A stretch of DNA of 64,000 nucleotides from Yoonia sp. BS5-3 (GTDB lineage Bacteria > Pseudomonadota > Alphaproteobacteria > Rhodobacterales > Rhodobacteraceae): contig NZ_CP150951.2 of assembly GCF_038069655.2 (NCBI RefSeq), positions 3,498,001-3,562,000 of the forward strand, given 5' to 3'. Position 1 is the first letter of the stretch; every line of letters starts with the position of its first letter. A model generated the notes under the pieces. The model was not told the origin of the DNA and ran no database searches. It worked only from the letters and a program-made list of their open reading frames with translations. Shown in pieces: positions 10,752 through 13,755 of the stretch. Position numbers and translations under genes: made by a program.

Positions 10752-10925
10752 TTAGCCCCCCATTTTCCATTTATTCCAAATCCGCCCATGGCTGCGCCGT
10801 TGGGGCGTGGCGGGCGCCTCAAAACATCCGCATTCAAGGTCATGACCCCAGCCCAAACCATCGCGCTTCATCGCGGCGATAGCTGCCGGATCGGCGCAGT
10901 ATTTTTGTGTTCTTTTCTGCCGCAT
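10752..10925 (-). CDS. Small 57-residue Cys-containing protein, SoxR-controlled (hypothetical)
   Basis: A short gene with start ATG at 10925, preceded by a purine-rich GGAAAGGAAAAG ribosome-binding stretch, and stop TAA at 10752, just 2 bp before the VOC gene. The product is basic and hydrophilic, with Cys at positions 10, 32 and 34 (the latter in LECGCFEA) and several Trp. I recognise no family. The case for a real gene is positional: good ribosome-binding site, correct placement behind a soxS-like promoter, and tight coupling to the VOC gene. Confidence 0.6.
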   Translation of the reverse strand: MRQKRTQKYCADPAAIAAMKRDGLGWGHDLECGCFEAPATPQRRSHGRIWNKWKMGG

Positions 10926-10955
10926 ATCTTTTCCTTTCCTTTTTGCTCTTATTGC

Positions 10956-10986
10956 TTTCTAATTTCTCAAGTTAACTTGAGATCAA
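10956..10986 (-). promoter_or_regulatory. SoxR-activated promoter: sox box between -35 and -10
   Basis: The perfect 18-bp palindrome TCTCAAGTTAACTTGAGA (10965-10982) differs from the E. coli soxS operator only at its outermost base pair. Reading leftward, it is flanked by TTGATC (-35, 10986-10981) and TAGAAA (-10, 10961-10956) with a 19-bp spacer, the over-long spacing that MerR-family regulators such as SoxR correct by twisting DNA. The geometry matches soxS exactly. It faces the 57-residue gene and VOC gene, while soxR starts 14 bp to the right and may be autoregulated. Confidence 0.9.
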
Positions 10987-10996
10987 GAGGTTTTTT

Positions 10997-11440
10997 ATGA
11001 GCCAGGGATTATCCATTGGCGATCTTGCCGACAGGACGGGTCTGGCCGTTTCGGCGATCCGGTTTTATGAAACCCATGGGATCGTGAAGCCCCTGCGAAA
11101 TAAGGGCGGCCATCGCCGCTATGGCCGGGCCGACATTCGCCGCCTGTCTTTTGTCATGGCGGCCCAAACGCTGGGGTTTCCACTGTCGGAAATCGCGGTG
11201 CATCTGCACGCGTTGCCCGATCACAAAGCGCCGACCAAGGCCGATTGGACCCGGATCAGCAAATCATTTCGCAACCAGATCGACGCCCGAATCGCAGCGC
11301 TCGAGGATCTCAGGGACAAGCTGGATGGCTGCATCGGCTGCGGCTGTCTGAGCCTGAAATCATGTGCGCTTTACAATCCATCCGATATCAAAGGCCGCGA
11401 AGGTTCTGGCCCGCGCAATTTGTCCGGGATCGCCGGTTGA
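10997..11440 (+). CDS. soxR: Redox-sensitive transcriptional activator SoxR
   Basis: A 147-residue MerR-family regulator that senses redox-cycling compounds through a [2Fe-2S] cluster. The N-terminal winged helix (IGDLADRTGLAVSAIRFYETHGIV) is followed by a dimerisation helix and the cluster motif CIGCGCLSLKSC, Cys 112, 115, 117 and 123, with the same spacing as E. coli SoxR. A sox box lies directly upstream, and the divergent two-gene operon is the only clear target in the window. No soxS is present, as expected outside enterobacteria. Confidence 0.95.
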   Translation: MSQGLSIGDLADRTGLAVSAIRFYETHGIVKPLRNKGGHRRYGRADIRRLSFVMAAQTLGFPLSEIAVHLHALPDHKAPTKADWTRISKSFRNQIDARIAALEDLRDKLDGCIGCGCLSLKSCALYNPSDIKGREGSGPRNLSGIAG

Positions 11441-11473: not shown

Positions 11474-12649
11474 ATGGAACTTTCTTCACGTCTTACAAAT
11501 ATCACGGGCGGCGGCTCTGACGGCTGGGCTGTCTTTTATCGCGCGCGGCGGATGATTGATGCCGGCCTCACCGTGACCGAGCTGACAATCGGCGAACATG
11601 ACATTCGCACGCATGACAGTATTCTAGCCGCCATGAACCTGTCAGCCATGGGCGGACATACAGGCTATGCCGAGGTGCCTGGCACCGCTGATCTGCGCGA
11701 TCTGGTTGCCGCAAGAGTGGCCAAGCGCACCGGTGTTCCGACCACGGCGGACAATATTCTGATCACCCCGGGCGGTCAGGCTGGCCTTTTTGCGGCGCAT
11801 CTGGCCGCATGCAATCCCGGCGACCCTGCCCTTTTTATTGATCCTTACTACGCAACCTATCCCGGAACGATCCGCGCCGTAGGCGCAGAGCCGGTCCCTG
11901 TGCAGACCCGCCCCGAGAACGGCTTTCAACCGGGCAAAGCCGCTTTGGACGCCGCAGCCGCCGGGGCGGCGTCCCTTTTGATCAACACACCCAATAACCC
12001 TACGGGGGCAGTTTACAGCCGGGATACCCTGACAGGTGTCGCTGAAATTTGCCATGCGCATGACCTGTGGCTGATCTCGGACGAAGTGTATGACACCCAA
12101 GTGTGGGAAGGGACACATATTAGCCCACGCAGCCTGCCAGGCATGGTCGAACGCACGCTGCTTGTCGGCTCAATGTCGAAAAGTCACGCAATGACGGGCA
12201 GCCGGATTGGATGGGTTTGCGCGCCTGAGCCTGTGATCACACATCTGATCAATCTGGCCACGCACACCACCTATGGTGTGCCCGGTTTTGTGCAGGATGC
12301 GGCCGCCTTTGCCTTGCAACAGGGCAGCGCCTTTGAAGAGGCTGTCGGCGCCCCATTTGCACGGCGCCGGGCGCTAACCCTTGCAGCCCTGAAGGGCCAA
12401 AACATTGTCCAGCCCGTCCCGGTTCAGGGTGCGATGTATGCAATGCTGGATATTCGGGCCACGGGCCTTAGCGGCGAAGCCTTCGCCAACGGCCTTCTGG
12501 ATGCGGAACATATCGCTGTCATGCCGGGCGAGAGCTTTGGAAAGGCTGCGGCCGGCCATGTGCGCGTGGCCATGACAATCGACGACGATGCCTATGTCGC
12601 CGCGTTAAACAGGCTGGTTGCCTTCGCCGCGTCGCAAGTGTCGCAATAG
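11474..12649 (+). CDS. PLP-dependent aminotransferase class I/II
   Basis: A 391-residue fold-type I aminotransferase. Recognisable are ITPGGQAGLFAAHLA, NTPNNPTGAVYSRDTL (Asn contacting the cofactor), ISDEVYDTQVW (Asp to the pyridine nitrogen), and SMSKSHAMTGSRIGW, where the Lys after SMS forms the Schiff base. The substrate cannot be read from the sequence; close relatives are annotated as aspartate or aromatic aminotransferases. The ATG at 11474 begins the conserved N-terminus; an upstream ATG at 11453 adds 7 residues. It follows soxR by 33 bp and could be partly co-transcribed. Confidence 0.85.
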   Translation: MELSSRLTNITGGGSDGWAVFYRARRMIDAGLTVTELTIGEHDIRTHDSILAAMNLSAMGGHTGYAEVPGTADLRDLVAARVAKRTGVPTTADNILITPGGQAGLFAAHLAACNPGDPALFIDPYYATYPGTIRAVGAEPVPVQTRPENGFQPGKAALDAAAAGAASLLINTPNNPTGAVYSRDTLTGVAEICHAHDLWLISDEVYDTQVWEGTHISPRSLPGMVERTLLVGSMSKSHAMTGSRIGWVCAPEPVITHLINLATHTTYGVPGFVQDAAAFALQQGSAFEEAVGAPFARRRALTLAALKGQNIVQPVPVQGAMYAMLDIRATGLSGEAFANGLLDAEHIAVMPGESFGKAAAGHVRVAMTIDDDAYVAALNRLVAFAASQVSQ

Positions 12650-12699: not shown

Positions 12700-13755
12700 A
12701 TGTTATTTGCCCTTCCCTCTGATGCGGCGCTTTATGAGGCGCTGCTGAACCGCGATACCCGTTTTGACGGGCAGGCTTTTGTTGGTGTCACATCAACGGG
12801 CATTTTCTGCCGCCTGTCCTGCCCGGCGCGCAAACCAAAGCGCGAAAACTGCCGGTTTTATGATCGGGTCTCTGCCGCGATCGAGGCCGGGTTTCGCCCC
12901 TGCAAGCGTTGCCATCCGCTGGGGCCTGCCGCTGCGGCAGAGCCGCATATCCAAACCCTGCTGAACGCTTTAGATGCACGCCCCCAGCATCGCTGGCGCG
13001 AGACGGATATCAGCGCGCTTGGGGTTGACCCTTCGACCGCGCGGCGCAGCTTTAAGCGCCATTTTGGCATGACCTTTCTGGAAATGGCCCGCCAAAGGCG
13101 TCTGGCCCATGGCTTTACCGCGCTCGAGGACGGCAAGGTGATCGATGCCCAGCTTGAGGCCGGTTTCGACAGTCCTGCGGCCTTTCGCGCAGCCTTTGCC
13201 AAATTGCTGGGGGCCGCGCCGGATCATTTTAAAAAACAGGCTATACTGCGTGCACATCCAATCAATACGCCGCTTGGCACCTTGATCGCCATCTGCGACG
13301 ATCACGGGCTGCATTTACTGGAATTTGCGGATCGCAAGGCGTTACCTGCCGAACTCAAACGACTCAGCAAAATGACGAAAGGCCATATCGGGGTTGGGCG
13401 GACAGACGTGACAGATCACGTATCCGCTGAGCTTGCGCGTTATTTCACAGGCGAAAGCGATGATTTCCAAACGCCGCTGATCCTGCATGGCACGCCGTTC
13501 ACCCGGCAGGTCTGGACCGCTTTGCGCAAGATACCAGCCGGCGAAACCCGCAGTTACGCAGCGCTTGCCCAAGTTATCAACGCCCCGACAGCCACCCGCG
13601 CCGTGGCCCGTGCCAATGGTGCAAACCAGATCGCCATATTAATCCCCTGTCACCGCGTCATCGGCGCAGATGGGGCCTTGACGGGATATGGCGGCGGGCT
13701 TTGGCGCAAACAACGCTTGATCGAACTTGAACAGCATTACGCAAAAAGGACCTAA
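12700..13755 (+). CDS. ada: Ada: methylphosphotriester/O6-methylguanine-DNA methyltransferase and activator
   Basis: Bifunctional adaptive-response protein of 351 residues. The N-terminal zinc domain carries Cys 37, 41, 68 and 71 with the C-x3-C and C-x2-C spacing of Ada, where the first Cys accepts methyl groups from phosphotriesters. An AraC-type helix-turn-helix region follows (about 90-180, ALGVDPSTARRSFKRHFGMT). The C-terminal alkyltransferase domain ends with IPCHRVIG, containing the acceptor Cys for O6-methylguanine. All functional parts are intact. The following gene starts 1 bp after its stop, making an operon likely. Confidence 0.94.
   Translation: MLFALPSDAALYEALLNRDTRFDGQAFVGVTSTGIFCRLSCPARKPKRENCRFYDRVSAAIEAGFRPCKRCHPLGPAAAAEPHIQTLLNALDARPQHRWRETDISALGVDPSTARRSFKRHFGMTFLEMARQRRLAHGFTALEDGKVIDAQLEAGFDSPAAFRAAFAKLLGAAPDHFKKQAILRAHPINTPLGTLIAICDDHGLHLLEFADRKALPAELKRLSKMTKGHIGVGRTDVTDHVSAELARYFTGESDDFQTPLILHGTPFTRQVWTALRKIPAGETRSYAALAQVINAPTATRAVARANGANQIAILIPCHRVIGADGALTGYGGGLWRKQRLIELEQHYAKRT

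Follow-up and report, generated by a model that had tools for sequence, protein, structure and literature searches.

We describe here a putative SoxR-driven unit that encodes a VOC-fold protein and, as we consider likely, a genuine 57-residue protein ahead of it, found in a window of 64,000 nucleotides from Yoonia sp. BS5-3. The evidence comes from the anatomy and conservation of the promoter, from the coding constraint on the small gene and from the linkage of the VOC gene to soxR and to the small gene, with which it forms one uninterrupted reading frame in some relatives.

The promoter and its divergent genes

In the leftward promoter (Table 1), a palindromic sox box lies inside the 19-bp spacer between the -35 and -10 hexamers, which is the arrangement of a SoxR-activated promoter. 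The first-pass annotation had described a soxS-like box with this spacing, and both points hold: only the outermost pair sets the box apart from the soxS operator of E. coli, and the spacer has the expected length, though the -10 hexamer is weak. Likewise, the box points at the 57-codon open reading frame, with the VOC start 2 bp past its stop. The 16-bp core of the box, CTCAAGTTAACTTGAG, occurs at a single place in the whole 3.98-Mb genome when up to two mismatches are allowed; the reversed pattern, used as a control, gave 0 matches in the same genome, and base composition predicts only ~0.0004 exact copies per genome. A looser pattern, CTNAAGNNNNCTTNAG, occurs once against ~2.4 expected. Regulation of the small-protein/VOC unit by SoxR is very likely, and, with just 14 bp separating the box from the start codon of soxR, autorepression of soxR is probable.

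Table 1. Features of the soxR locus, with positions in the window
Feature	Position	Strand	Basis
sox box TCTCAAGTTAACTTGAGA, 18 bp	10965-10982	none	genome pattern scan; box-like sites beside soxR in relatives
-35 hexamer TTGATC	10981-10986	-	consensus match only
-10 hexamer TAGAAA, weak	10956-10961	-	consensus match only; follows the 19-bp spacer
soxR, MerR-family redox sensor	10997-11440	+	TIGR01950; [2Fe-2S] motif CIGCGCLSLKSC
small protein, 57 aa, GxGW core	10752-10925	-	homologues beside soxR; codon tests; no library model
VOC-fold protein, 128 aa	10363-10749	-	PF00903; AlphaFold model; VOC fold matches

The SoxR protein scores 181.7 bits against TIGR01950 (curated cut-off 116.9), which places it in that family, and carries the ligand pattern CxxCxCx5C of the [2Fe-2S] cluster as CIGCGCLSLKSC. 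An aminotransferase gene (11474-12649) begins 33 bp past soxR, if its start is the ATG at 11474, and is followed by an Ada-type methyltransferase gene (12700-13755); read-through from soxR is possible.

Membership of the downstream protein in the VOC superfamily is given by its match to PF00903 (45.8 bits, cut-off 20.6) together with the folds that its AlphaFold model (pLDDT 85.8) resembles, namely glyoxalase I (GloA2, E. coli GlxI), FosX, TnmS3 and ChaP. GloA2 (Z 14.1, rmsd 2.5-2.6, 111-119 aligned residues) and the antibiotic-binding TnmS3 (Z 12.7, rmsd 2.8, 115 aligned) are both close in fold, at sequence identities of 13-26% among the 50 structure matches listed. The protein reaches the cut-off of none of the eight NCBIfam models listed, and we rejected its naming as glyoxalase I (TIGR00068, 12.3 against 120; NF050074, 25.3 against 165) or as FosA/FosX (NF000496, 13.8 against 180; NF000222, 12.3 against 170). 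Residues E5, H6, H78, E121 and E123 are invariant in an alignment of 25 rows, from which L031, L035, L036 and L040 were left out, and would, by comparison with the ligand positions of known VOC enzymes, suit a metal site of two histidines and one carboxylate. The fourth ligand of glyoxalase I seems to be absent here.

The 57-residue protein matches no Pfam or NCBIfam model at E values up to 1. A search of solved structures gave no credible relative, the best match having E 3.7, and the AlphaFold model of the protein is of low quality (pLDDT 68.3, pTM 0.35). Searches of plasmids and of phage-defence models gave no match. A kinship with DUF1127 was considered and dropped: PF06568 was listed for none of 27 homologues at an E limit of 10, at which HMMER filters nonetheless remove most matches above 0.1, while a profile comparison that also returned nothing carries no weight here, its alignment being flawed by one wrong open reading frame (L175).

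Neighbours of soxR across the family and class

Among 198 genomes of the family, 88 have soxR, and all 88 loci, that of the window included, were examined. The first-pass annotation had a SoxR-type promoter driving the small gene and the VOC gene as a pair. This arrangement recurs across genera, yet the wider partner of soxR is the VOC gene, which is divergent to it at 67 of the 88 loci, and not the small gene, which occurs at 10 (nine with VOC, one without). The box, at up to two mismatches of a degenerate 25-mer, is present at 66 of the 88 loci, comprising 55 of the 67 with VOC and 11 of the 21 without; the other 12 VOC-linked loci have no box at this threshold. As a genome-wide search, the box pattern matched 47 of the 198 genomes and its reversed control none. 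In five family genomes, selected because a VOC gene was seen at a distant box and none at soxR, the VOC gene directly follows a box away from soxR. In Ruegeria sp. TM1040, the annotated soxR and VOC genes are divergent neighbours.

The 21 soxR loci that have no VOC gene (e.g. L056, L064 and L133) represent a second group of SoxR, in which the box beside soxR is often kept, perhaps for autoregulation only. Two sox-box-like sites, at 1525 (-) in L095 and at 1501 (+) in L113, immediately precede genes for MFS transporters (PF07690) in loci without soxR; from this position, these genes are probable additional SoxR targets in the family.

A scan of 385 genomes of the class found soxR in 31 of them and a VOC match at E <=1e-15 in 17, with 14 of these matches below 1e-30. 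Twelve of these 14 strong matches are divergent neighbours of soxR; of the other two, the VOC gene of G434 is tail-to-tail with soxR and that of G463 unlinked, and each is preceded by a box-like site, with 0 and 2 mismatches, respectively. Seven families other than this one account for nine of the 14, and their box-like sites have 0-4 mismatches, where 4 is close to the 5-7 of the second-best places in the same loci. Two results speak against a class-wide rule: of the 26 soxR genomes outside the family, 17 have no strong VOC match, and three weaker VOC matches (E 4e-16 to 4e-18) fall in genomes without a soxR match. In G463 (L195, 1424-2600), the C-terminal half of the VOC gene under the box-like site is repeated downstream of the gene, with the frame shifting from copy to copy.

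The small gene is found more narrowly, placed ahead of VOC under the promoter in only part of the family. A search of the 198 family genomes gave 13 matches, and the nine at E < 1e-4 all adjoin soxR, each with a box-like site that departs from the pattern at 0-4 of 16 positions; VOC is present at eight of these nine loci. The remaining four matches, which are weaker (L011-L014), do not lie by soxR and were dropped as chance. A scan of named genomes, some of them shared with that search, gave 28 small-gene loci (L015-L042) in Yoonia, Loktanella, Cognatiyoonia, Wenxinia, Octadecabacter, other genera and further Rhodobacteraceae. At all 28, soxR is divergent and a box-like site (weighted mismatch 0-2.5) lies between the two genes; in 27, VOC is next to the small gene. 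Ten matches of the class scan outside the family (E 5e-4 to 0.01) were set aside as chance, there being no soxR in the loci fetched. In Cognatishimia G105 (L035/L075), the small gene stands under a sox box in a genome with no VOC match at E 1e-10. Loci L124 and L156 have a different short open reading frame in the slot between box and VOC, weakly DUF1127-like (E 0.009 and 0.027) and below the cut-off.

Within the same genus, 56 genomes were sampled, 43 with soxR and 13 without. A box (0-1 mismatch) and a VOC gene are present at all 43 soxR loci. The small-protein profile matched 31 of the genomes, and 30 matches are credible, all beside soxR; that in G617 (L238), not by soxR, was discarded as chance, and the 13 genomes without soxR gave no match at E 0.001. 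Counted by locus, the small domain is present at 35 of 43, including five diverged versions counted by eye (L245, L247, L249, L253 and L254); L251 keeps a remnant, and at seven loci VOC directly follows the box. The small protein of L211 is identical to that of Yoonia maricola (L021), and the Loktanella locus L018 matches the same-genus locus L212.

A quick SoxR tree of 108 rows and 143 columns, in which many forks are unresolved, places the VOC-less loci to one side of a branch with weak support (65); the small gene requires 3 changes against a mean of 27.3 after shuffling. This fits a small gene that was gained once, between the promoter and VOC, and later lost in some loci, and stops short of proof of a single origin or of the first state.

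Coding constraint and the possible role of the small protein

The small open reading frame is, by its codon pattern, a real and constrained protein of a new family without a library model. In 27 aligned rows, pN is 0.40 and pS, which is saturated, 0.74; L031, whose frame was shifted, and L036, which the motif filter missed, were left out. Among 30 same-genus pairs (pS below 0.6), omega is 0-0.31 in 21 and 0.47-0.78 in the remaining nine, values that are rough as the pairs are short and have common members. Seven of the nine compare a Cys-type with a Cys-less form (the other two are L219-L227 and L232-L234). The GxGW motif is conserved in 27/27 aligned rows, Cys10 in 26/27 and Cys34 in 19/27; the pattern used to scan the named genomes demanded the core motif, so that motif conservation there is partly built in, whereas the codon tests are independent of this demand.

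At nine of the 43 same-genus soxR loci (L230, L233, L235, L236, L237, L244, L245, L253 and L254), the small-gene frame continues without a stop into VOC. The VOC gene retains its own ATG in these frames, preceded by a Shine-Dalgarno-like stretch in five of them (L230, L233 and L235-L237), and hence fusion and dual start are both possible. Because the frames are continuous in these nine loci, we read the small protein as an accessory domain of VOC. That it is a partner of VOC at all we regard as an evenly balanced proposition; direct contact between the two would be expected on this reading. The fuller proposal is that the 57-residue protein founds a new family of accessory domains under SoxR control, whose task would be to dock on, complete or place a VOC enzyme dedicated to redox-active compounds, with shifts between separate and single-chain forms within the genus and loss of the cysteines; we put it forward tentatively, as somewhat less probable than its negation.

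Two other roles for the small gene would leave its product without a function on VOC. It could act mainly in cis, with its translation opening or setting the VOC ribosome-binding site and the peptide itself having no job. Such coupling would suit the tight junctions of the genus: at 18 of the 23 separate-gene loci listed, the VOC start (chosen by script) comes 2 bp after the small-gene stop or overlaps it by 4. L222 was left out of the listing, as no start passed the filter. It would also suit the basic KRR tail of many versions, which overlaps the Shine-Dalgarno-like AAAAGGAG of the VOC ribosome-binding site and is, because of this coincidence, not to be over-read. The amino-acid constraint, however, is concentrated in residues 1-37, well away from where VOC begins (pN 0.32 in the core against 0.62 in the tail), omega is at most 0.31 in 21 of the 30 pairs, and the continuous frames need no coupling, which together make a cis role improbable.

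Alternatively, the small protein might be a SoxR effector in its own right, for instance one whose cysteines bind a metal or a thiol-reactive compound, and merely share the VOC mRNA. The frequency of Cys10 and Cys34 speaks for it, as does the Cognatishimia genome that retains the small gene without VOC. The Octadecabacter protein (L041), however, has no cysteine and keeps the GxGW core, as do most of the run-on forms, and pairs among the Cys-less forms L233-L237 are still constrained, with omega 0.19-0.28. A general cysteine-based mechanism is therefore unlikely, and of the earlier description as a cysteine-containing 57-residue protein the gene itself stands, while the cysteines are not an essential feature. 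Given also that VOC accompanies the small gene in all but one of the named loci, we consider an independent effector unlikely, if less so than a cis role.

A further doubt concerns the VOC protein, which might act not on a drug but on a metabolite of the cell itself that rises under redox stress, for example a quinone breakdown product or an aldehyde. Glyoxalase I is indeed among its nearest folds, but FosX and the antibiotic-binding TnmS3 are among the same matches, and SoxR targets elsewhere include a paraquat exporter and modifying enzymes (PMC4411124, PMC4146615). We thus rate an endogenous substrate as somewhat unlikely, though a shade more credible than an independent role of the small protein. 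The part in redox-drug defence that the first-pass annotation had proposed is plausible, given SoxR and the VOC fold.

Proposed mechanism and comparison with known SoxR systems

In the mechanism that we favor, a SoxR dimer would sit on the single box in the overlong 19-bp spacer of the leftward promoter, forming a SoxR divergon. Redox-active compounds would induce the unit by oxidising the [2Fe-2S] cluster of SoxR, with the resulting twist of the DNA leading to a two-gene mRNA for the small protein and then VOC, and soxR itself would probably also be held in check by the same box. As the effector, the VOC protein would inactivate the redox-active compound, most likely as an enzyme that depends on a metal, or else by binding it. 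One lineage probably acquired the small protein later, and there it would most likely serve as an accessory domain of VOC in its assembly, loading or placement.

The SoxR design is known; the VOC target and the small-protein family appear to be new. No mention of VOC as a SoxR target was found in the literature searched, which covers few subscription papers and leaves room for an earlier mention, and the text of PMC8859910 contains neither 'glyoxalase' nor 'bleomycin'. The SoxR of this marine family gains a concrete conserved target, a VOC subfamily under a sox box at most loci checked, and the natural toxin or metabolite that SoxR senses can be sought by way of the VOC substrate. A family of constrained small proteins, matched by no model in the libraries searched, is added, and the natural continuous small-VOC frames make the partner hypothesis testable.

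In E. coli, the target soxS is a transcription factor that drives a wide regulon. The 19-bp spacer of that system is like the one described here, whereas the targets in Yoonia look like effectors and not like a regulator, and the SoxR loop reads CLSLKSC in place of the CLSRSDC of E. coli. The first-pass annotation was fair in stating that few SoxR targets are defined outside enterobacteria and pseudomonads, yet some are, among them mfsA of S. maltophilia and six genes driven by SoxR in S. coelicolor (PMC4411124, PMC4146615). The S. coelicolor SoxR is activated by plumbagin, pyocyanin and toxoflavin and not by paraquat (PMC5288332). The closest parallel in design is S. maltophilia, for which PMC4411124 describes soxR divergent to mfsA, a target in drug tolerance; the box there lies in a 19-bp spacer, extends over the start of soxR and also represses that gene. 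The divergon design is the same in both, with an MFS exporter as the target there and a small protein and a VOC protein here.
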